Of a stretch of DNA of 64,000 nt, positions 33,761 through 60,210 are shown piece after piece. Made by a program: the position numbers and the translations under genes. The DNA is from Paraneptunicella aestuarii (GTDB taxonomy: Bacteria; Pseudomonadota; Gammaproteobacteria; Enterobacterales; Alteromonadaceae): assembly GCF_019900845.1 (NCBI RefSeq), contig NZ_CP074570.1, positions 2,976,001 through 3,040,000 of the forward strand. Reading direction: 5' to 3'. Every line of letters begins with the position of its first letter. Position 1 is the first letter of the stretch. The notes beneath the pieces were generated by a model. That model saw nothing but the letters and a program-made list of their open reading frames with translations, was not told the origin of the DNA and did no database searches.

Positions 33761-34039
33761 ATGAAAACAGAAATGCTAAGCACGCGGATAGATCCGGAAA
33801 CCAAAATAGCATTTACCAATGTCTGCGAAGAAATGGGCCTAAGCCCTTCGCAAGCGATTAAACTTTTTGCAAAAGCCGTGATTAATTATGGTGGCATCCC
33901 TTTTGAACTTAAAGCAAAACAGCCCAATGCCATAACAGCATCGGCGATCCAGGAACTTGAATCTGGCAAAGGCAACAAAGCAAAAGATGTAGATGAACTA
34001 TTTGAAACCATGGGTATTAGTCAGGGACGCGATGCTTAA
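33761..34039 (+). CDS. dinJ: RelB/DinJ family antitoxin
   Basis: A 92-aa ribbon-helix-helix antitoxin. The RHH part is TEMLSTRIDPETKIAFTNVC, then EEMGLSPSQAIKLFAKAV, and the toxin-binding tail is acidic. It overlaps the toxin gene by 8 nt and should repress its own promoter with the toxin. Confidence 0.92.
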   Translation: MKTEMLSTRIDPETKIAFTNVCEEMGLSPSQAIKLFAKAVINYGGIPFELKAKQPNAITASAIQELESGKGNKAKDVDELFETMGISQGRDA

Positions 34040-34304
34040 TTTAGAGTATTCATCACAATTCAAGAAAGACTTTAAGAAGATCACCAAATTGCCTATTGCT
34101 GATATTGTCGAAGTTGGTCATGTCATTAAGCAATTGCAGCTTGGCAACCCATTAGCAGAAAAATATGTTGATCATGCATTATCAGGAAATTGGCAGCACT
34201 ACCGCGACTGCCATATCAAACCAGATTTAGTGCTAATTTACAAAGCGGAAACAAGCACTTTAAAGCTAGCTAGAATAGGCTCCCACAGCGAATTATTCCG
34301 CTAA
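34032..34304 (+). CDS. yafQ: YafQ-type mRNA interferase toxin
   Basis: A 90-aa RelE-superfamily toxin that cleaves mRNA on the ribosome. The YafQ pattern is clear: FKKDFKKITK near the start, HALSGNWQHYRDCHIKPDLV in the middle, and the ending LARIGSHSELF. The start at 34032 overlaps dinJ. It lies at the left border of the CRISPR region; no gene follows before the array-associated repeats. Confidence 0.92.
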   Translation: MLNLEYSSQFKKDFKKITKLPIADIVEVGHVIKQLQLGNPLAEKYVDHALSGNWQHYRDCHIKPDLVLIYKAETSTLKLARIGSHSELFR

Positions 34305-34322: not shown

Positions 34323-34937
34323 AAATCCGTTCCCGATGGATTTGTCACGGGCACTCTGCCCATTACATCCTCGTCAAGCTGAACTCGTTTCAGCTTCTCT
34401 TGAATACAGGCACTTTTTAAACCCATCGCCACATTCAACCATGTTTATTCGCGCTTTCCCTAGATACAACTTTCATTGAAGCGACAACAAGTTTACGGTT
34501 GTTTAACCCATCCATGGTGCTGGGTTCCAGCCGCGACGTCCTGTCGCGTCGTTCGTTCCTTTTATCGTGATTACCTATCACGATAAATCTGCTTCGCAGA
34601 CCGGAGCCTCACCCCCATCGGGGCTAGCCTTCGGCTATTCACCAAGATTTGTTGGAACAAATCAGAACAGCGTTAGCTGGCTTGCGAAGCAAGTGGAGCA
34701 CAAGGATGTGCGACATAAAATTGCTCCCGGCAATTTTGTCACGGCACTCTGCCCTAAGCATCGCTCTTATCAGCAACACACTAGATTTAACAGGTGCTTG
34801 TCTGGAAGTCTCCACCACATTCAACCATGTTTATTCGTCCCATCCATGGGACTCACCCCTTCGGGGCTAGCCTTCGGCTATTCAAAATTGCTCCCGGCAA
34901 TTTTGTCACGGGCACTCTGCCCTAAGAGCTCTGCAAC
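34323..34937. repeat. Hairpin-string elements fused to CRISPR repeat pieces (distal end of array 1)
   Basis: A mosaic of several hairpin-string copies. CRISPR-repeat hairpins (CACGGGCACTCTGCCC, one with a base missing near 34740) separate the copies, and each is preceded by a 9-bp hairpin with a TCCCG-type loop, for example AAATCC..GGATTT at 34323. Other modules are TTTATCGTGAT/ATCACGATAAA near 34560, CTGCTTCGCAG, TAGCC/GGCTA, and ATTTGTTGGAACAAAT. The reading frames seen here are chance products of the hairpins. Confidence 0.8.
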
Positions 34938-35739
34938 TTTTACGAGATGCACTGGATTAACCATCATGCTCCGTTTCACGGGCACTCTGCCCTATTCATC
35001 ACTCTTATCAGCAACACACCAGATTTAACAGGTGCTTGTCTGAAAGTCACCACCACATTCAACCATGTTTATTCGTCTCATCCCTGAGACTCACCCCTTC
35101 GGGGCCATGCTGAAGCATGTTCAAATCCGTTCCAGACGGATTTGTCACGGGCACTCTGCCCTAAGAGCTCTGCAACAGCGGGCTTCTGGATGCCTTGATT
35201 TTAAAGGGCTACAGAAGGGCTTTACTACCATCATTTATTAAAGAACGTGTTTTCGGTTGTTGAACCCATCCATGGTGCTGGGTTCCAGCCGCGACGTCCT
35301 GTCGCGTCGTTCGTTCCTTTTGGCGTAATTACCTATTACGCCAAATCTGCTTCGCAGACCGGAACCTCACCCCTAAGAGCTCTGCAACGTTTTGAATCTT
35401 TCTGAGTTGTCGGCATTAAAATTCCGTTTCACGGGCACTCTGCCCTAAGAGCTCTGCAACAATTTACTTTTCCTTAGCAAAAACTATGCATGCCAAGTTT
35501 CACGGGCACTCTGCCCTAAGAGCTCTGCAACACATGTGATTTTCCATGGGAACACGAAAAATTAGTTTCACGGGCACTCTGCCCTAAGAGCTCTGCAACA
35601 AAAAGAAAAAGATAAAGTATATCTTCTTGATTCAGGTTTCACGGGCACTCTGCCCTAAGAGCTCTGCAACCAGATTTGCACGCAATAACACACCTCGAGC
35701 AGGCGTTTCACGGGCACTCTGCCCTAAGAGCTCTGCAAC
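34921..35739 (-). CRISPR. CRISPR array 1 (35-nt repeat), partly invaded by hairpin elements
   Basis: Five intact 35-nt repeats at 35426, 35497, 35565, 35636 and 35705, with spacers of 33-37 nt, plus interrupted repeats at about 34921-34937, 34973 and 35372-35388. Six spacers can be read (34938-34972, 35389-35425, 35461-35496, 35532-35564, 35600-35635, 35671-35704). Read on the minus strand the repeat ends in GTGAAAC, like the 5' tag of type I/III crRNAs, and the likely leader lies on the right, so transcription should be leftward. A leader fragment at 35177-35270 lies inside the array. Confidence 0.93.
35177..35371 (-). repeat. Truncated extra leader copy joined to a hairpin-string module
   Basis: Bases 35177 to about 35270 repeat the first 90 bp of the array 1 and 2 leaders. 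At the point where the leader has its own hairpin block, a standard module follows (CGCGACGTCCTGTCGCG, then TTTGGCGTAAT/ATTACGCCAAA, then CTGCTTCGCAG). The module ends in CCTCACCC joined directly to the second half of a CRISPR repeat. Confidence 0.75.
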
Positions 35740-36121
35740 AGCGGGCTTCTGGATGCCTTGATTTTAAAGGGCTACAGAAGGGCTTTACTACCATCATTTA
35801 TTAAAGAACGTGTTTTCGGTTGTTGAACCCTTCCATGGTGAGGGCTTCCAGCTCGGCATCCATGCCTCGCGTTCGAGCCTGAAATTGCTGCGCGCTCTCG
35901 CAATTTCCGGGCGGCTCTCACCCACCAATTTTTTGTTGGTAAAAATCATGGCTTTTCATTACTGTTTTTGCAAGTTTCATTTGTTGCTTGTCTTCCCGTT
36001 ATTAAAGGGGTGTCACCATGTGTTTTTTGAAAAAGCAAGAAATTAAATTCATAACCCATTGTTTTAATTGAATTATTTTAAAATCCCGAAACAATTTGTT
36101 ACTTATACCAATTTCATGGTG
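35740..36121 (-). repeat. Leader of array 1; 382-bp direct repeat, copy 1
   Basis: Directly follows the last repeat of array 1 and matches 52589-52970 with only a handful of differences, at an offset of 16849 bp. The array-distal part is AT-rich. The middle (about 35815-35935) is a diverged hairpin-string element: GGCATCCATGCC, then GAAATTGC/GCAATTTC, then CACCC. The same small reading frame in both copies is a by-product and not a convincing gene. Confidence 0.85.
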
Positions 36122-36222
36122 CTGGGTTCCAGCCGCGACTTCCTGTCGCGTCGTTCATTCCTTTTATCGTGATTACCTATCACGATAAATCTGCTATGCA
36201 GACCGGAGCCTCACACCTAATC
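36113..36222. repeat. Hairpin-string module next to the truncated cas6-RT gene
   Basis: CATGGTGCTGGGTTCCAG, CGCGACTTCCTGTCGCG, TTTATCGTGAT/ATCACGATAAA and CTGCTATGCAG, ending in CCTCACACC. It begins where the two leader copies stop matching and lies 80 bp from the stop of the cas6-RT gene. Confidence 0.8.
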
Positions 36223-36300: not shown

Positions 36301-38091
36301 TTAATTAAAAAACAAATTCTTTTCTTTCAAACTATATAGGCTTACCGAGTAGCCTGTATCTCTGCGCAATTCTGATAACACCAATTGCTCAGCCTGTTCT
36401 TTGGTTTTACATAAAATAATAAAGTCGTCGACGAAGCGGATAAGTTGCAGTTGGTGGTCTTCCATATCTGCCCCTATTAAAAAAAGGCAATCGTCGAGCA
36501 TCAGGTTCGCTAATACCGGGCTTATCGCACTACCTAAAGGCAATCCCTTTAGTTGAAAACCTTCGTATCCGTGAGGCAGTTTGTCGCGGTTAATGGGGGT
36601 ATTTAGCCAAGCCCGTATCAGTTCCCATATTGGGTCGTTTCCATATAACGCTTTAAGTTTATGCAAAAGTTGCGTTGTGTTGACGTTCTGAAAAAAGCTG
36701 CGAATATCGGCGTCAACCACCCAGCGATACCCCTCGCGCCATGCTTGTTGTATTTTGTCTTTAACTGTTAGCCGGGAACGGCCTTTACGGTATCCATAAC
36801 TGGCATAGCTGTACAGGTTGTCGAGCGATTCGCCCAACCACAGGCTGGCCGATTTTTGCAGCACTTTGTCACGGAAACCCGGCAACAATAGCATTCTGGG
36901 CTTGGGTGTATCCTCATCAATCAATACCGGGTGCAAAGGTTGAGGTTGATAGCGATAGGCGTAGTCGGGCTGATGAATGGCATGGATCAAATCCGTCACC
37001 GCTTCTTCACCTTGCCATTGATAACGCTGCTTTTCAGGTAGCTTGCGTAGTTCGTCCTGCCAGACCGAATGGATACGCTCTCCAGCAATCATTTGCTGGT
37101 ACAAGCTATTTGCACGAGTAAAGGTTAATAACGTGCTTTGCGCTTGTTCTTGATTGCCATAAGCAAGCAAGCGATAACGGCCAAAGCCTAAACCTCGGCT
37201 TAGCCCAATTCCCAAATACTGCCCTGCGACCAGATACTGCCATTGTTGCAGGGTGAGGGGGGCGTTAATGGTTAAGCATAGGGAACCACATAGCCCTCCC
37301 AGGGTTTTGTATTCACCTTTAAGGGATTGATAACCGCAATCTGCCCAAAACAGTTGAGTACGCTCTGAGGGGTTCTCAAGTTGCCAATCGGGCTGTTCGC
37401 AAAAAGGTAAACGCTCAGGCTTACCCCACTCATTCACCCGCTCTTTATCGTGTTGAACATTATGCAATTGCTGAATAGCCTGAACCAGGCGCATAAACAG
37501 CATATTCGGGTCGAACTGTTGCGGATGGCGTACTACCCCTTGCTCACCTTTACCTCGCGTTTTCGGTGTACTGAGACGTATAGGAGAGAGAAATTCCAAC
37601 ACCAGAGATTTAGGCTGTAAGGCATACCACTGCTGCGCTTCATGCTCTATGGAATCCATATCAATCGGCATTGCCTGTTCCGGGCTAGCTAACGATTGTT
37701 GCGTCAACGCATCACGAATTGACACCAATTCAAACTGTCCGCCAAACTGCCCGCGCATGTTATGCACAAAATCGCCATGAGGTAGTTTGCTGAGCTGGTC
37801 GAAAAGCTGTGCTTGTGAGCTATAACCAAACGCGCTGTTAGCAGAGTCAGGCGCGCCCACAGAAGAACAGGGAAGCGCAATGCAATAAAAGCGATACCAA
37901 TCTCCTGCGGCATAATGCAATTGCCCCGATTCCGGCGTATGAATAGCCCAGCATTGTTCGTAGTTTTCGGGGCTACCCAACAAATGGCGCATAAAGGCAT
38001 TCACCAATGGCTGGTGAAAAAACGGCATTTCACCCGCTTCTAACCATCGCAGGTTCACTTCAAAGATTTTAAGCGGCAGAAAAGCGAACAT
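36301..38091 (-). CDS. Cas6-reverse transcriptase fusion, truncated within the RT domain
   Basis: A 596-aa fusion. Residues about 1-310 are Cas6-like and end in a glycine-rich loop, GIGLSRGLGFGRYRL at about 294-308; Cas6 cuts pre-crRNA within the repeat. Residues about 400-560 are a group II intron-type RT: YGYRKGRS (432-439), motif A VVDADIRSFFQNV (458-470), motif B GLPLGSAISPVLANL (516-530), motif C FVDD (553-556). The protein ends about 40 residues later, so motifs D/E, the thumb and the Cas1 domain usual in Cas6-RT-Cas1 fusions (as in Marinomonas) are missing. No Cas1 remnant follows, and a hairpin-string module lies 80 bp downstream. It is the last gene of the cas operon, 20 bp after the CARF gene. 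Confidence 0.9.
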   Translation of the reverse strand: MFAFLPLKIFEVNLRWLEAGEMPFFHQPLVNAFMRHLLGSPENYEQCWAIHTPESGQLHYAAGDWYRFYCIALPCSSVGAPDSANSAFGYSSQAQLFDQLSKLPHGDFVHNMRGQFGGQFELVSIRDALTQQSLASPEQAMPIDMDSIEHEAQQWYALQPKSLVLEFLSPIRLSTPKTRGKGEQGVVRHPQQFDPNMLFMRLVQAIQQLHNVQHDKERVNEWGKPERLPFCEQPDWQLENPSERTQLFWADCGYQSLKGEYKTLGGLCGSLCLTINAPLTLQQWQYLVAGQYLGIGLSRGLGFGRYRLLAYGNQEQAQSTLLTFTRANSLYQQMIAGERIHSVWQDELRKLPEKQRYQWQGEEAVTDLIHAIHQPDYAYRYQPQPLHPVLIDEDTPKPRMLLLPGFRDKVLQKSASLWLGESLDNLYSYASYGYRKGRSRLTVKDKIQQAWREGYRWVVDADIRSFFQNVNTTQLLHKLKALYGNDPIWELIRAWLNTPINRDKLPHGYEGFQLKGLPLGSAISPVLANLMLDDCLFLIGADMEDHQLQLIRFVDDFIILCKTKEQAEQLVLSELRRDTGYSVSLYSLKEKNLFFN

Positions 38092-49692: not shown

Positions 49693-50001
49693 TTAATATT
49701 GGTCACCTTGCTGACTAACCCAATAGTCTGGCTTACGATGCAAATTTGCCACAGCAAGAATAACGATAGATTTTTCATTCTCTGTGTAAATCAGGCCGTA
49801 AGGAAAGTTATGAAGCAAGCACCTTCGAGTTCGTTCACTTACCCGTTGCCAAGAAGAGGGGTATGCGATAATCCGTTTAAGGCCAGAGTTAACTTCTGAG
49901 ATAAAGCGATCACCCAAGCCATTCAATTGAGATTCGTAATACTCGAAAGCATTATCTAACTCCAACTGAGCAAGCCTTGCAAACTCAACCTTTTTTTGCA
50001 T
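49693..50001 (-). CDS. ParE/RelE-type toxin
   Basis: A 102-aa RelE/ParE superfamily toxin. LAQLELDNAFEYYESQLNGL near the N-terminus, RIIAYPSSWQRV in the middle and VNFPYG/HNFPYGLIYTENEK-type beta strand (here RRCLLHNFPYGLIY) followed by VANLHRKPDYW are typical. It overlaps the antitoxin gene by 17 nt. It lies between the cas operon and array 2, inside the segment bounded by the 382-bp direct repeats. Confidence 0.9.
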   Translation of the reverse strand: MQKKVEFARLAQLELDNAFEYYESQLNGLGDRFISEVNSGLKRIIAYPSSWQRVSERTRRCLLHNFPYGLIYTENEKSIVILAVANLHRKPDYWVSQQGDQY

Positions 50002-50319: not shown

Positions 50320-50488
50320 CGTTTTTGGCACGAGCACTAAACCCTGTCCACTAATCACCATCGAGTTTACGGTTGTTTAACCCGTCCGTGGTATTTGGTT
50401 CCAGCCGCGACTTCCTGTCGCGTCGTTCGTTCCTTTTATCGTGATTACCTATCACGATAAATCTGCTTCGCAGACCGGAGCCTCACCC
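50320..50488. repeat. Hairpin-string module at the distal end of array 2
   Basis: Starts at a decayed half repeat (GGCACGAGCACT) and continues with AAACCCTGTCCACTAATCACC-type sequence, CGCGACTTCCTGTCGCG, TTTATCGTGAT/ATCACGATAAA and CTGCTTCGCAG, ending CCTCACCC before CTAAGAGCTC of the next repeat half. A near copy lies at 51496-51645. Confidence 0.75.
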
Positions 50489-50562
50489 CTAAGAGCTCTG
50501 CAACAATGACTTCATGGGTCATGCCGACGGCTCGCCTTTGTTTCACGGGCACTCTGCCCTAA

Positions 50563-51090
50563 TCAATCCTTCGTCATTCCGGCCTCCGAGCCGGAATCCA
50601 GAGAATCAGCAACAGTTGTGTCTGTTACAACCTTGCTAACTCCAACCATGTTTATTCGCGCTTTCCCTGCGCTCACCCCTTCGGGGCCATGCTAAAGCAT
50701 GTTCAAATCCATTCCCGATGGATTTGTCACGGGCACTCTGCCCAATCAATGCGTCGTCATTCCGGCCTCCGAGCCGGAATCCAGAGAATCAACAACAGTT
50801 GTGTCTGTTATAACCTTGCTAACTCCAACCATGTTTATTCGTCCCATCCTTGGGACTCACCCCTTCGGGGCTAGCCTTCGGCTATTCAAAAATGTTCCCG
50901 ACATTTTTGTCACGGGCACTCTGCCCTAATCATCGCTCTTATCAACAACACACCAGATTCAACAGGTGCTTGTCTGGAAGTCTCCACCACATTCAACCAC
51001 GTTTATTCGCGCTTTCCCTGCGCTCACCCCTTCGGGGCTAGCCTTCGGCTATTCAAAATTGCTCCCGGCAATTTTGTCACGGGCACTCTG
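50563..51090. repeat. Chain of three hairpin-string elements inside a CRISPR repeat (array 2)
   Basis: Three elements joined by repeat-derived hairpins (GGGCACTCTGCCC near 50730 and 50915). Terminal 9-bp hairpins are CAAATCCAT/ATGGATTTG (50704), CAAAAATGT/ACATTTTTG (50887) and CAAAATTGC/GCAATTTTG (51054), all with the same TCCCG loop. Two start with ATCAAT..CGTCATTCCGGCC and one with the alternative arm ATCATCGCTCTTATC. Confidence 0.8.
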
Positions 51091-51170
51091 CCCTAAGAGC
51101 TCTGCAACTTTATTAACCCATAATCCTTCGGGAGCGCGACAGCCGTTGTTTCACGGGCACTCTGCCCTAA

Positions 51171-51430
51171 TCAATGCGTCGTCATTCCGGCCTCCGAGCC
51201 GGAATCCAGAGAATCAACAACTGTTGTGTCTGTTACAACCTTGCTAACTTCAACCATGTTTATTCGTCCCATCCATGGATATAACTTTCATTGAAGCGCC
51301 AACAAGTTTACGGTTGCTTAACCCATCCATGGTGGTTGGTTCCAGCCGCGACTTCCTGTCGCGTCGTTCGTTCCTTTTGGCGTAATTACCTATTACGCCA
51401 AATCTGCTTACTCAGACCGGAGCCTCACCC
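51171..51430. repeat. Hairpin-string element inside a CRISPR repeat (array 2)
   Basis: Begins ATCAATGCGTCGTCATTCC after the first half of a repeat. Carries TTTGGCGTAAT/ATTACGCCAAA near 51376 and ends CCTCACCC joined to CTAAGAGCTC. Confidence 0.75.
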
Positions 51431-51495
51431 CTAAGAGCTCTGCAACTAAGAAGGATAATTTTTATGTTTGAGTTATTTATGGTTTCACGGGCACT

Positions 51496-51645
51496 AAACC
51501 CTGTCCACTAATCACCACCGAGTTTACGGTTGTTTAACCCATCCGTGGTGCTGGGTTCCAGCCGCGACTTCCTGTCGCGTCATTCGTTCCTTTTATCGTG
51601 ATTACCTATCACGATAAATCTGCTTCGCAGACCGGAGCCTCACCC
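51496..51645. repeat. Short hairpin-string module inside a CRISPR repeat (array 2)
   Basis: Starts AAACCCTGTCCACTAATCACC-like after GGGCACT of a repeat and ends CCTCACCC before CTAAGAGCTC. Carries TTTATCGTGAT/ATCACGATAAA. Confidence 0.75.
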
Positions 51646-51717
51646 CTAAGAGCTCTGCAACATGATAATTTCTTTCTTGGCCATAAACTTATTGTCGTTT
51701 CACGGGCACTCTGCCCT

Positions 51718-51952
51718 GATTAATCCGCCGTCAAAGTCCCCTCCCCTGGAAAAGGGGAGGGCTAGGGTGGGGTCAAAAACCATCTCACCACATTCAACCA
51801 TGTTTATTCGTCCCATCCATGGGACTCACCCCTTTGGGGCTAGCCTTCGGCTATTCACCAAGATTTGTTGGAACAAATCAGAACAGCTTTAGCTGGCTTG
51901 CGAAGCAAGTGGAGCACATGGATGTGCGACATAAAAACGCTCCAGGCGTTTT
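51718..51952. repeat. Hairpin-string element with a swapped terminal palindrome (array 2)
   Basis: Where other copies have GCCGG-type palindromes this copy has TCCCCTCCCCTGGAAAAGGG followed by GAGGGCTAGGGTGGGG. It ends with AAAAACGC/GCGTTTTT (loop TCCAG) before the repeat hairpin. Confidence 0.75.
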
Positions 51953-52041
51953 TGTCACGGGCACTCTGCCCTAAGAGCTCTGCAACATAAAAAAAGACAG
52001 GGGCAGTGTTCGGGGTGTAAGGTTTCACGGGCACTCTGCCC

Positions 52042-52282
52042 TAATCAGTCCGTCGTCATTCCGGCCTCCGAGCCGGAATCCAGAGAATCAACAACGGTTG
52101 TGTCTGTTACAACCTTGCTAACTCCAACCATGTTTATTCGTCCCATCCATGGGACTCACCCCTTCGGGGCTAGCCTTCGGCTATTCACCAAGATTTGTTG
52201 GAACAAATCAGAACAGCGTTAGCTGGCTTGCAAAGCAAGTGGAGCACATGGAAGTGCGACATAAAACGCTCCCGGCAATTTT
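52042..52282. repeat. Hairpin-string element inside a CRISPR repeat (array 2)
   Basis: Flanked on both sides by TCACGGGCACTCTGCCCTA, a 19-nt duplication of the local repeat. Internal hairpins include GGCC..GGCC palindrome near 52062, TCCCA/TGGGA, TAGCC/GGCTA and ATTTGTTGGAACAAAT. Confidence 0.85.
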
Positions 52283-52588
52283 GTCACGGGCACTCTGCCC
52301 TAAGAGCTCTGCAACACTTTTCTCTGCGTATTTTTACGCAAATAATTTGTTTCACGGGCACTCTGCCCTAAGAGCTCTGCAACCATAAACGAAGAGATAA
52401 TAAAAAATGGAAAAAGAGTTTCACGGGCACTCTGCCCTAAGAGCTCTGCAACATTAATAAATGTCTGATAAATATGAGATTTTGGGTTTCACGGGCACTC
52501 TGCCCTAAGAGCTCTGCAACTGAATACCTAGAATGGCAGTGCTTTTATTATGCGTTTCACGGGCACTCTGCCCTAAGAGCTCTGCAAC

Positions 52589-52970
52589 AGCGGGCTTCTG
52601 GAGGCCTTGATTTTAAAGGGCTACAGAAGGGCTTTACTACCATCATTTATTAAAGAACGTGTTTTCGGTTGTTGAACCCTTCCATGGTGAGGGCTTCCAG
52701 CTCGGCATCCATGCCTCGCGTTCGAGCCTGAAATTGCTGCGCGCTCTCGCAATTTCCGGGCGGCTCTCACCCACCAATTTTTTATTGGTAAAAATCATGG
52801 CTTTTCATTACTGTTTTTGCAAGTTTCATTTGTTGCTTGTCTTCCCGTTATTAAAGGGGTGTCACCATGTGTTTTTTGAAAAAGCAAGAAATTAAATTCA
52901 TAACCCATTGTTTTAATTGAGTTATTTTAAAAAGCCGAAACAATCTGTTACTTATATCAATTTCATGGTG
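52589..52970 (-). repeat. Leader of array 2; 382-bp direct repeat, copy 2
   Basis: Nearly identical to 35740-36121 and directly next to the last repeat of array 2. Contains the same diverged hairpin-string block at about 52665-52785. Recombination between the two copies would delete the whole cas cassette. Confidence 0.85.
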
Positions 52971-53384: not shown

Positions 53385-53732
53385 ATGGCTGAACATGATT
53401 TTAAGGGCTTTGGGGGATGTTTTGTCAAAGAGTTTCCGCTTGAACGGGGGAATTTGGTGTTAAAACAGCGTTGGTTGTCGCTTTTTCATGCGAATTCAGG
53501 CAGCCAGAACCACACGGGCGAGCCTGTATTCGGCTCTTCTCTCTCACAGGCTCAGGCATCGTTATTGGTACTTCCCGGGTATGTATTAATTACGACTCAA
53601 CCTCAGTTGTGTGGGCAATTGGCGGGCATTGCAGAATTACAGTTCCGGCAAGACGAGTTAAAGCAGGATTTTTCCCACGCCATTGAAGGTTTGCTCATGC
53701 AAATCACCAGGTCAACGCCAGTGCTCATGTAG
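53385..53732 (+). CDS. Unknown 115-aa protein between divergent CRISPR leaders
   Basis: A soluble 115-aa protein with a strong AAGGAG ribosome-binding site and ATG. It has DFKGFGGCFVKEFPLERGNL at the N-terminus, ASLLVLPGYVLITTQPQL in the middle, and an amphipathic C-terminal helix (QDELKQDFSHAIEGLLMQIT). No signal peptide or membrane helix. I do not recognise a family. It is the only gene between arrays 2 and 3, so a role in CRISPR regulation or crRNA handling is possible but unsupported beyond position. Confidence 0.65.
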   Translation: MAEHDFKGFGGCFVKEFPLERGNLVLKQRWLSLFHANSGSQNHTGEPVFGSSLSQAQASLLVLPGYVLITTQPQLCGQLAGIAELQFRQDELKQDFSHAIEGLLMQITRSTPVLM

Positions 53733-54144
53733 AAAATTCATGTAGCGAATTCATGGCAGGCCGTTTCGGGAGGCTTGTGTTAATGGCCTCCTTTATTGGT
53801 GAAATGGAATAGTCGAAATAGCCGAAATAAAAAACCTTAGCTCACAACATCCCATTGCCTTACAATGCCAACCTCGGGGTTTAATACCGCCCGACATCCG
53901 CTAACCTAAAGTGCTCATTGCAAGGTTTGTCAAAAAACCTACTTAACTTGCTGAAATAAAACACTTTTTCAGCCAGACATAAGAAAAACGATTAGCGGAA
54001 AACAAAAGCTCTTTAACAATCAACCAGTTAGCAACACAAACGCAAATGGACATTGCACCAAAAACCTCAATATCAAGGCTAAATAAAGAGGTTAGCGGAA
54101 AACACCAAACCAGGCCGCAAGGAATAAGGCCAACAACAGAGGGA
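53733..54144 (+). promoter_or_regulatory. Leader of array 3
   Basis: AT-rich, directly before the first 37-nt repeat. TTAGCGGAAAAC occurs twice (about 53993 and 54092), roughly 100 bp apart. It is unrelated to the leaders of arrays 1 and 2. Confidence 0.65.
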
Positions 54145-54604
54145 GTTGCAACCAAACCTCAGGGCGAAGTGCCCGTGAAACCACATTAACTCCTCAGCCT
54201 GACGCTGAATCAAATGTTGCAACCAAACCTCAGGGCGAAGTGCCCGTGAAACACTAGGGGTTGTGCAATTTCTTCACTAGGGGGTGGTTGCAACCAAACC
54301 TCAGGGCGAAGTGCCCGTGAAACATATGATCACCGAAACTGTAAACACCGTGTCCACGTTGCAACCAAACCTCAGGGCGAAGTGCCCGTGAAACAAAGCC
54401 CCGATAGGTCTGACATCGGGGCTTTTTGTTGCAACCAAACCTCAGGGCGAAGTGCCCGTGAAACACGCAGAGGTCTATTGCCCCTAGTACATTGGATGGT
54501 TGCAACCAAACCTCAGGGCGAAGTGCCCGTGAAACATGGAGTCAGGCGGAGCAATACACACGCTACAGAAGTTGCAACCAAACCTCAGGGCGAAGTGCCC
54601 GTGA

Positions 54605-54769
54605 CGAATCTTTCGGGAGAAGATTCGAACATGCTTTAGCATGGCTCCGAAGGAGTGAGCGCAGGGAAAGCGCGAATAAACATGGTTGGAGTTAGCAAGG
54701 TTGTAACAGACACAACGGTTGTTGATTCTCTAGATTCCGGCTCGTAGGCCGGAATGACGACGGACTGAT
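54605..54769. repeat. Hairpin-string element in array 3 with 18-nt target duplication
   Basis: A 165-bp insertion flanked on both sides by AGGGCGAAGTGCCCGTGA (54587-54604 and 54770-54787), which is part of the array 3 repeat. Opens with CGAATCTT/AAGATTCG, then CATGC/GCATG, and ends with the GCCGG..CCGGA palindrome and GACGGACTGAT. Confidence 0.9.
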
Positions 54770-54928
54770 AGGGCGAAGTGCCCGTGAAACCTGACCATAC
54801 ATCTAACGTATTAATCACGGGTGGTTGCAACCAAACCTCAGGGCGAAGTGCCCGTGAAACTTTACAAATAGTTATCTAACTTTTTCAGCATCATGTTGCA
54901 ACCAAACCTCAGGGCGAAGTGCCCGTGA

Positions 54929-55237
54929 CAAATCCATCGGGAATGGATTTGAACATGCTTTAGCATGGGCCCGATGGGGGTGAGGCTCCGGTCTGCGAAG
55001 CAGATTTGGCGTAATAGGTAATTACGCCAAAAGGAACGAACGACGCGACAGGACGTCGCGGCTGGAACCAAGTACCATGGAAGGGTTAAGCAGCCGTAAA
55101 CTCGTTGTCGATTCAATGAAAGTTATATCCATGGATGGGACGAATAAACGTGGTTGGAGTTAGCAAGGTTGTAACAGACACAACCGTTGTTGATTCTCTG
55201 GATTCCGGCTCGGAGGCCGGAATGACGACGGATTGAT
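54929..55237. repeat. Longer hairpin-string element in array 3
   Basis: About 309 bp inside a repeat and flanked by GGGCGAAGTGCCCGTGA. It opens with CAAATCCAT/ATGGATTTG and includes the module with TTTGGCGTAAT/ATTACGCCAAA and CGCGAC..GTCGCG. Confidence 0.87.
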
Positions 55238-55326
55238 TGGGCGAAGTGCCCGTGAAACCGACTAATTCAGGGAGTTTAAAGCCACATGCAGAGTTGCAAC
55301 CAAACCTCAGGGCGAAGTGCCCGTGA

Positions 55327-56395
55327 CGAATCTTTCGGGAGAAGATTCGAACATGCTTTAGCATGGCTCCGAAGGAGTGAGCGCAGGGAAAGCGCGAATA
55401 AACATGGTTGGAGTTAGCAAGGTTGTAACAGACACAACCGTTGTTGATTCTCTAGATTCCGGCTCGTAGGCCGCTATGACGACGGACTGATAGGGCGAAG
55501 TGCCCGTGACAAAAATGTCGGGAACATTTTTGAATAGCCGAAGGCTAGCCCCGAAGGGGTGAGCGCAGGGAAAGCGCGAATAAACGTGGTTGGAGTTAGC
55601 AAGGTTGTAACAGACACAACCGTTGTTGATTCTCTAGATTCCGGCTCGTAGGCCGGAATGACGACGGACTTATTGGGCGAAGTGCCCGTGACAAATCCAT
55701 CGGGAATGTTTTATGTCGCACTTCCATGTGCTCCACTTGCTTCGCAAGCCAGCTAACGCTGTTCTGATTTGTTCCAACAAATCTTGGTGAACATGCTTTA
55801 GCATGGGCCCGATGGGGGTGAGGCTCCGGTCTGCGTCAGCAGATTTGGCGTAATAGGTAATTACGCCAAAAGGAACGAACGACGCGACAGGAAGTCGCGG
55901 CTGGAACCAAGCACCATGGATGGGTTAAACAACCGTAAACTCGTTGTCGCTTCAATGAAAGTTATACCCATGGATGAGACGAATAAACGTGGTTGAATGT
56001 GGTGCAGTTCAGGTAGACACAACTGTTGTTGATTCTCTGGTTTTTTATTCTCTTGCATCGGGCTCGTAGGCCGGAATGACGGAGGACTGATAGGGCGAAG
56101 TGCCCGTGACAAAAATGTCGGGAACGTTTTATGTCGCACTTCCATGTGCTCCACTTGCTTCGCAAGCCAGCTAACGCTGTTCTGATTTGTTCCAACAAAT
56201 CTTGGTGAGCATGCTTTAGCATGGGCCCGATGGGGGTGAGTCTCAGGGATGAGACGAATAAACGTGGTTGAATATGGTGCGGTTCAAATAGGTACAACCG
56301 TTGTTGATTCTCTGTTTTTTTATTCTCTTGCATCGGGCTCGTAGGCCGGAATGACGACGGATTGATTGGGCAAAGTGCCGGTGACAAATCCATAT
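55327..56395. repeat. Chain of four hairpin-string elements replacing the middle of array 3
   Basis: Elements joined by repeat-derived hairpins near 55494, 55676, 56094 and 56374 (the last as GGGCAAAGTGCC). Opening hairpins are CGAATCTT/AAGATTCG, CAAAAATGT/ACATTTTTG (55511) and others. No spacer-like sequence lies between them. The chain breaks off near 56395, where the region next to the DUF1501 gene begins. Confidence 0.82.
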
Positions 56396-59877: not shown

Positions 59878-60135
59878 TTAGCAGATTTGGCGTAATAGGT
59901 AATTACGCCAAAAGGAACGAACGACGCGACAAGACGTCGTGGCAGGAACCAAATACCACGAATAGGTTAAACAACCGTAAACTCGTTGTCGCTTCAATGA
60001 AAGTAATATCCAGGGACAGCGCGAATAAACGTGGTTGGAGTTAGCAAGGTTGTAACAGACACAACTGTTGTTGATTCTCTGGTTTTTTATTCTCTTGCAT
60101 CGGGCTCGGAGGCCTGAATGACGTAGGGATTGATT
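59878..60135. repeat. Hairpin-string element, right half of the split array 3 chain
   Basis: Begins within the CAGATTTGGCGTAATAGG module and runs through the CGACGCGAC part and TTGTTGATTCTCTGG arm to TTGATT, then joins a CRISPR repeat hairpin. It completes a chain interrupted at about 56395. Confidence 0.8.
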
Positions 60136-60210
60136 GGGCAAAGTGCCCGTGAAACTTGATTGCTACCATCCTCTAAGCCCTCTCATACCGTTACAAGCAA
60201 ACCTCAGGGG
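60136..60210 (+). CRISPR. Detached end of array 3: half repeat, one spacer, degenerate terminal repeat
   Basis: GGGCAAAGTGCCCGTGAAAC (60136-60155) is the second half of a 37-nt repeat. It is followed by a 34-nt spacer (60156-60189), then GTTACAAGCAAACCTCAGGG (60190-60209), which differs from the repeat start at a few positions and loses similarity afterwards, as terminal repeats do. Confidence 0.85.

Follow-up and report, generated by a model that had tools for sequence, protein, structure and literature searches.

CRISPR arrays of the window and their hairpin strings

The DNA that we analysed (the window, 64,000 nucleotides, positions 2976001-3040000) lies within the single-contig, 4.91-Mb genome of Paraneptunicella aestuarii. 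It holds three CRISPR arrays and one decayed remnant around a type III cas set consisting of Cas10, a Csx10-like protein, several RAMP proteins, a CARF-HEPN protein and a Cas6-RT protein without Cas1. The gene for this Cas6-RT protein (596 aa; 36301-38091, minus strand) is a neighbour that lies outside the element described here; the Cas1 part absent from it is present in a 1044-aa homologue at 2.04 Mb. A 115-aa protein without a family match is encoded beside array leaders in the window (53385-53732, plus strand), and coding sequence similar to it can be read beside leaders at ~797.2-797.6 kb (L031) and ~3307.3 kb (L032). YafQ/ParE-like toxin genes are located beside array 1 (33993-34304) and between the cas set and array 2 (49693-50001). 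A search for known structured RNAs with Rfam at gathering scores returned five tRNAs in the window and nothing else.

The arrays are built from two repeat types with one hairpin core in common, type 1 (GTTGCAACCAAACCTCAGGGCGAAGTGCCCGTGAAAC) and type 2 (GTTGCAGAGCTCTTAGGGCAGAGTGCCCGTGAAAC), and repeats of these types are also found at two further loci, 794-800 kb and 3304-3306 kb. Array 3 (54145-56384, plus strand) carries the type-1 repeat, with its leader upstream (~53990-54144) and a decayed distal end. Reading the sequence and parsing the array placed the focal hairpin string, 165 bp long, at 54605-54769. The original prediction had set this string between two copies of AGGGCGAAGTGCCCGTGA, and its coordinates hold: on the plus strand, the left copy (54587-54604) is the last part of the preceding repeat piece with only AAC missing, and the right copy (54770-54787) is followed by AAC. 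The modules of the string run in the order terminal hairpin CGAATCTT..AAGATTCG, CATGC/GCATG, CTCC/GGAG and GCGC hairpins, and CGTC-type REP hairpin. Further inserts of the same kind, which we call A-type, follow in array 3: one with a module B inside (54929-55238, gap of 310 nt) and a tandem string of three, opened by 55327-55491 (gap 165) and continued by 55510-55674 (gap 165) and by 55692-56091, which has modules B and C (gap 400). An extra A-type insert (56110-56366) precedes a decayed core (56367-56384) and stands outside the count of 29 given below.

Array 2 (50487-52588, minus strand) has the type-2 repeat, which reads GTTTCACGGGCACTCTGCCCTAAGAGCTCTGCAAC on the plus strand, and its leader lies on the right from 52589. 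The array-2 copy named in the original prediction is an A-type insert with module C (52045-52283, gap 239), and its flanks were confirmed as TCACGGGCACTCTGCCCTA at 52025-52043 and 52284-52302. Elsewhere in array 2, the left half of an A-type insert is a different palindrome (CCCCTCCCCTGGAAAAGGGGAGGG; 51718-51954), an A-type left half is joined to module B and followed by a right piece that starts at repeat position 18 (51171-51428, gap 258), and module B sits in the loop of a type-2 repeat as R(1-14)-B-R(18-35) with no overlap (51496-51643). Three tandem A-type inserts (50563-50726, 50744-50909 and 50930-51076) occupy 50563-51076. Array 1 (34345-35739, minus strand), also of type 2, contains inserts at 34362-34742, 34759-34905 and 34995-35144 and, at 35177-35370, a module B attached to a leader fragment. 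The decayed remnant (59880-60209, plus strand) comprises an element part, the core TGGGCAAAGTGCCCGTGA, a 34-nt spacer and a degenerate type-1 repeat.

Junctions and modules of the inserts

In total, 29 A-type inserts of 147-403 nt were counted in six arrays at three chromosomal loci (A, B and C); they come from 33 gaps of more than 60 nt in type-1/type-2 arrays, from which we left out four, three where module B stands alone and one where it accompanies a leader fragment. With the leader oriented to the right, each insert follows a left repeat piece that runs to position 19-24 and precedes a right repeat piece. The right piece starts at repeat position 4 in 27 of the 29; in the other two it starts at position 9, which coincides with a core deletion, and at position 18, which follows module B. 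The flanking pieces thus overlap by ~16-20 nt in 27 inserts and by 12 and 6 nt in the other two. Module B alone splits type-2 repeats three times, always as R(1-14)-B-R(18-35) and without overlap. At 98-403 nt between partial repeats, the inserts of this genome are unlike spacers, which measure 32-39 nt. Since all 77 spacer-size gaps parsed fall within these 32-39 nt, no insert lies inside a spacer with two whole repeats.

The original prediction that the flanks match the local repeat type is borne out. The flank loops are of the array's own type in 58/58 cases, CTCTG in type-2 arrays and CTTCG in type-1 arrays (with the variant CTGCG in two flanks); this count rests on 29 long intervals between matched repeat cores, which are partly composite and differ from the 29 A-type inserts. 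Loop variants of the flanks alternate in array A1. The array-2 flank has 39 matches with at most 3 mismatches, compared to a shuffle mean of 0.00. Unequal exchange is visible in the arrays themselves: one spacer occurs twice in succession at 796.09-796.20 kb (L031), and a 586-bp array segment, inserts included, is duplicated at 3305.0-3306.1 kb (L032).

Inserts are distributed unevenly along the arrays. The 3 to 14 repeats nearest to the leader are uninterrupted in seven of eight arrays, the exception being A2, whose first repeat is interrupted. Summed over arrays, these leader-proximal uninterrupted runs amount to 42 of 84 repeats (31 of the 84 being interrupted), a value reached by 0 of 200000 within-array permutations; the position vector was coded by hand, with tandem strings counted once and two terminal repeats left out, and with these two added the result was 42 of 86 and 0 of 100000. 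The leader end is avoided, and therefore the inserts either postdate spacer acquisition or are tolerated only in the old parts of arrays.

A fourth locus at 2.04 Mb (locus D) has inserts of its own. Two arrays with the repeat GTCTCAACAGCTTCAAACAGCTAGTGGTTCCAGAC lie around the open-frame Cas6-RT-Cas1 gene (1044 aa), and this repeat is unrelated to types 1 and 2 and lacks a GGGC..GCCC hairpin. In the D arrays, different hairpin strings (D-a to D-d, 98-143 nt) form 12 inserts, which likewise sit between overlapping pieces of their own repeat, so that 41/41 A- and D-type inserts sit between overlapping pieces of the local repeat. The right piece starts at position 11 in 12/12; left pieces end at 20, 23, 25, 29 or 31, which gives overlaps of 10-21 nt. 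Judged from these ends, a single left junction at 31, altered afterwards, seems to underlie D-b and D-c, and one that lost five bases seems to underlie D-a. The REP dimer of D-d differs from D-c and is found at identical junctions, R(1-31)/R(11-35). The claim that insertion occurs at the GGGC..GCCC hairpin thus survives in part: the inserts are always at repeats, but the rule fails at 2.04 Mb, where there is no such hairpin, and module B splits the loop without overlap. The type I-C array of this genome, which has an RT-less Cas1, contains 19 normal spacers and no large gaps; REP-like palindromes lie directly past its distal end (L041, ~1756.49-1756.65 kb).

The left half of the T-type strings, those of the type-1/type-2 arrays, usually has a CGTC-type REP hairpin, CGTC-ATTCCGGC-CTCCGA-GCCGGAAT-CCA. 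A CGTCATTCCGGC or CGTCATAGCGGC tag, in agreement with the CGTC (TGTC/CCTC) tag of known REPs, is present in 18 of 23 aligned left halves; the remaining five (the TCATCRC type and 51717) are without a CGTC-type hairpin, and other palindromes may replace it. D-b and D-c carry the REP tag CGTCATGCTGA. In most tagged left halves the stem ATTCCGGC/GCCGGAAT is followed by CCA, which agrees with CGTC-tagged REPs in its 8-9 bp, AT start and CCA tail. Some REP hairpins have mismatched arms (ATAGCGGC with GCCGGAAT, in array C and at 55492), CTA in place of CCA, or an enlarged hairpin. The loop, CTCCGA or CTACGA, is 6 nt long and departs from the 4-5 nt of CGTC-tagged REPs; we therefore name the hairpin CGTC-type and do not file the whole string as a REP. 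By eye, terminal inverted repeats are absent, as the T-type ends differ (TCARTCC.. versus ..TTTTG); the D dimers show only GTCAT..ATGAC.

Four hairpins in succession make up the right half; each has two to six stem alleles, and the stems are more variable than the loops. For the two hairpins that align cleanly, 120/120 cells pair and changes on both sides occur in 6 of 12 pairs. Their covariation score was reached by 0 of 500 shuffles, a threshold that related sequences easily exceed, and sliding the partner by one column reduced pairing to 54-58%; the alignment comprised all 10 distinct right blocks among 16, with inserts carrying modules B or C left out. Hairpin-templated repair could yield such compensatory arms without selection. 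Both m1 x m3 and left half x m3 show four of four allele combinations among arrays at loci ~2.5 Mb apart. Stem alleles have thus been reassorted between arrays at different loci, and therefore segments have been exchanged. Module B resembles a stretch of the type-2 leader (~75-85% over 41-59 nt; 52590-52790, 35741-35941, L031 and L032), and a module-B fragment (~36115-36213) lies just past the end of the Cas6-RT gene, adjoining a leader copy.

Distribution in the genome, in relatives and among known repeats

Searches of the whole genome revealed that the strings are confined to arrays with the same repeat core. T-type matches of at least 70 nt occur only in loci A, B and C or in the decayed remnant (window 60 kb), as do 15/15 matches of module B, among them one in the remnant and the fragment between the array 1 leader and the RT gene. 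The D element has 12/12 matches of at least 83 nt in locus D, and a 21-nt D segment has 33/33 (at most 3 mismatches) there. In these whole-genome searches no D family appeared in T arrays and no T family in D arrays. The original prediction had reasoned that GGGC..GCCC flanks found away from CRISPR repeats would belong to the element. The core GGGCNNAGTGCCCGTGA (at most 1 mismatch) has 86 matches genome-wide, compared to 3 for a reversed control pattern, and all 86 lie in the three CRISPR loci or in the decayed remnant at window 60135, which upholds the reading of the flanks as repeat sequence. One decayed element piece at 3660.8 kb leans the other way: it includes 15 nt (GGCACTCTGCCCTAA) from the type-2 repeat, and the 6 kb examined there yielded no further piece of a repeat.

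Outside the arrays only pieces are found: this 3660.8-kb piece, terminal hairpins of 56-68 nt adjacent to 5S genes and REP hairpins of ~30-40 nt. By eye, the terminal hairpins (GTGACAAAAACGTCGGGAGCGTTTTTGAACATGC) follow three 5S rRNA genes, at 35.56, 725.96 and 4515.8 kb (L037, L035 and L036), with a partial 5S repeat and a gene that we take to be IS630-like nearby. A loose GTCA-hairpin pattern matched 39 times in ~21 kb of arrays and 14 times in 400 kb of evenly spaced background, where 7 of the 14 form one cluster. The REP dimers outside arrays, only five found by pattern and three of them of one sequence family, are without a flanking duplication in 5/5 cases: their longest shared word is 4-5 nt, and random pairs have a mean of 4.7 nt, with 9 or more in 2 of 400. 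The proposal that the flanks are duplicated target and not element thus holds in its second half, since they come from the local repeat and do not form a constant part of the element; a target-site duplication is left unsupported by these dimers.

The full-length partner suggested by the original prediction did not emerge. We saw no transposase, recombinase or RT borne by the element, and plasmid and phage collections gave no match to it at E 1e-5 in distant mode. A Y1 transposase (PF01797) had no match in the P. aestuarii genome, with control matches in 5 of 14 known genomes; for this reason we dropped RAYT/IS200-type insertion 3' of a GTGA tetranucleotide. A search with RVT_1 for a group II intron partner gave four genes in the genome; one of them, of 556 aa at 4.324 Mb and read as an ORF only, has a REP dimer ~0.8 kb past its end.

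We surveyed relatives around Cas1 genes, using 54 loci (53 from the same family and one from the order; 48 array calls, 1311 normal spacers) and a further 40 loci of the order (41 array calls, 830 normal spacers), these totals including calls that are variants of a single array or overlap within it. Three related genomes had comparable inserts, and most arrays examined had none. In G507, whose repeat appears I-F-like, the arrangement is R(1-27)-110 nt-R(4-28), plus partial cases, with overlaps of ~22-24 nt; the string contains hairpins. G019, of the same genus, has REP dimers in a cluster upstream of cas1, with 81 and 117 nt between complete 28-nt repeats (overlap 28), and the same REP dimer directly after the last repeat of the real array; by its sequence its repeat also seems I-F-like. 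In G402, from another family, a 125-bp unit with REP hairpins occurs five times in tandem with an overlap of 13 nt. Each copy has before it a 9-nt piece of the repeat similar to GAACCCAGC; before the first stands R(1-13), and a complete repeat follows the last. Loci L163, L169 and L181 had no comparable insert; large gaps at L114 (2.3 and 7.1 kb) and at L180 (4.4 kb) fall outside the survey, and L127 was read and is uncounted. Copies of the element itself matched in 4 of 59 genomes (P. aestuarii, G016, G032 and G058), the foreign matches being pieces of 24-39 nt. An order-wide search for Cas6-RT-Cas1 gave P. aestuarii, G157 and G195 (3/394, among the matches listed), and the G195 array (L142) is clean; a contig scan with the same protein gave four distant loci and was uninformative.

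Several known systems resemble these strings. GTAG REPs with their RAYTs, and IS200/IS605 derivatives, have short hairpins with a tetranucleotide beside the stem; GTGA precedes several of our modules and may be such a tetranucleotide, whereas the tag here is not GTAG and a Y1 transposase is unmatched in the genome. BOX, ERIC, NEMIS and NIME are modular palindromic, MITE-like repeats dispersed in genomes; the present families are likewise mosaics of hairpin modules and are instead confined to CRISPR loci. A transposon or MITE that duplicates its target would leave a duplication of constant length at each new site; here the overlap within arrays ranges over 6-28 nt, and the outside REP dimers show none. 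In the excerpted text of Di Nocera et al. (2013; PMC3733652), CGTC-tagged REPs, including Neisseria dRS3 and Rickettsia RPE-6/RPE-4, are widespread and their dedicated transposase is unknown; in H. neapolitanus 41-bp palindromes enclose CGTC-1 dimers, and in T. roseum small palindromes enclose GTAG-23 elements. Our REP hairpin resembles those described there in its CGTC tag, 8-bp stem starting with AT, CCA tail, dimers and absence of an associated transposase; it differs in being one module of a longer string, in its 6-nt loop and in its residence in CRISPR arrays. Mobile DNA also interrupts CRISPR-Cas loci through IS insertion into cas genes, as an excerpt of PMC10359306 relates, with coding transposons there as opposed to palindrome strings at repeats here. 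Among the literature matches listed (titles and abstract openings, few subscription journals), hairpin or REP strings inside CRISPR repeats are undescribed. The strings are thus of a known kind, modular palindromic repeats with a CGTC-type REP, and their residence at CRISPR repeats in several lineages is new as far as we searched.

Origin and spread of the inserts

The explanation that we favour, at roughly an even chance, is a rare founding event per array family followed by copying driven by homology. The inserts are hairpin-module mosaics that usually include a CGTC-type REP. A string of this kind would have become established at a CRISPR repeat on one or a few occasions in each array family; homologous recombination or template switching would then have copied it between repeats and between arrays, with homology supplied by the repeats and by the inserts themselves. 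Such copying would explain the confinement to same-core arrays, the fixed junctions, the tandem strings and the reassorted hairpin alleles. In type-1/type-2 arrays, crRNA processing on either side of the inserts could survive because most flanks keep the repeat hairpin. The two pieces that flank an insert could stem from a single repeat by duplication, or from adjacent repeats that lost the spacer and their edges; G019, with complete repeats on both sides, looks like two repeats with a lost spacer. Leader-end avoidance fits any gradual insertion.

Homology into an intact repeat amounts to at most ~20-35 nt per side, which is near the usual minimum for RecA, and to much less for T1 versus T2, and the m3/m4 exchanges share only a ~6-nt linker, all of which argues against copying. 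The presence of D-d at the junctions of D-c suggests a repeated site-specific event, and these shared junctions, together with the insert-free spacers, speak for more than chance plus copying. They would be expected of a non-autonomous mobile element that an unlinked enzyme inserts into CRISPR repeats, duplicating part of the repeat as its target. Flank overlap in 41/41 inserts, flanks of the local type, 0/77 interrupted spacers, unrelated strings at identical junctions, similar inserts in G507 and G402, and the fact that the type-1 20-nt segment TCA..TGA is the folded part of the repeat all agree with this reading. We nevertheless consider it unlikely, given an overlap that varies from 6 to 28 nt across P. 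aestuarii, G507, G019 and G402, outside REP dimers without duplication, the unmatched Y1 transposase, families that do not cross between unrelated repeats, a D cut inside the folded stem of the repeat and not at hairpin edges, and a further G402 copy (L185:12430) with no repeat piece before it. The original prediction of a mobile element that targets repeat hairpins is unsupported on the same grounds, and homology-driven spread, not a hairpin-seeking transposase, explains the confinement to same-core arrays.

About as improbable is an origin at array ends, in which an array end abutting a REP string, with a truncated last repeat, was duplicated inwards by unequal recombination, so that the fixed junction marks the old array end. 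At several arrays the distal end does begin with an element end (window 34323-34345, 56385 onwards, 794.21 kb, and D1 as GGTCA/CTTCAAACAG), although decayed inserts would account for such ends equally well. In A2 the last repeat is 4 nt short, close to the fixed junction; G019 has its REP dimer right after the last repeat, and the clean I-C array has a REP-like palindrome just past it. In G507 (L144), however, the distal repeat runs from position 1, yet its inserts are followed by position 4. The CRISPR adaptation machinery, especially Cas6-RT-Cas1 at 2.04 Mb, might also integrate long structured RNA or DNA into repeats via reverse transcription. RT-Cas1 stands beside the D arrays, the right end and right junction stay constant across inserts with different left halves, and the I-C array with its RT-less Cas1 is clean. 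The known product of adaptation is a full repeat duplication plus a short spacer at the leader, whereas the inserts avoid the leader end, overlap mostly in part and measure 98-403 nt; moreover, the G507 and G019 repeats appear I-F-like and G019 has no RT-Cas1 relative among the matches listed. We regard this route as very improbable. A broader proposal, doubtful and a little less probable than either the mobile element or the array-end origin, is that CRISPR repeats are a recurrent landing site for transposase-less CGTC-type palindromes, into which a structure-recognising enzyme, possibly an RT-Cas1 complex, inserts strings, with a duplication of part of the repeat that lets crRNA processing survive.

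Programs that find arrays may break them or report false spacers at such palindrome strings. Since different hairpin strings in three related genomes behaved similarly, such DNA may have a refuge in CRISPR arrays. Because the order of an array reflects time, the inserts can be dated against spacer acquisition, which makes the arrival and copying of CGTC-type palindromes testable.
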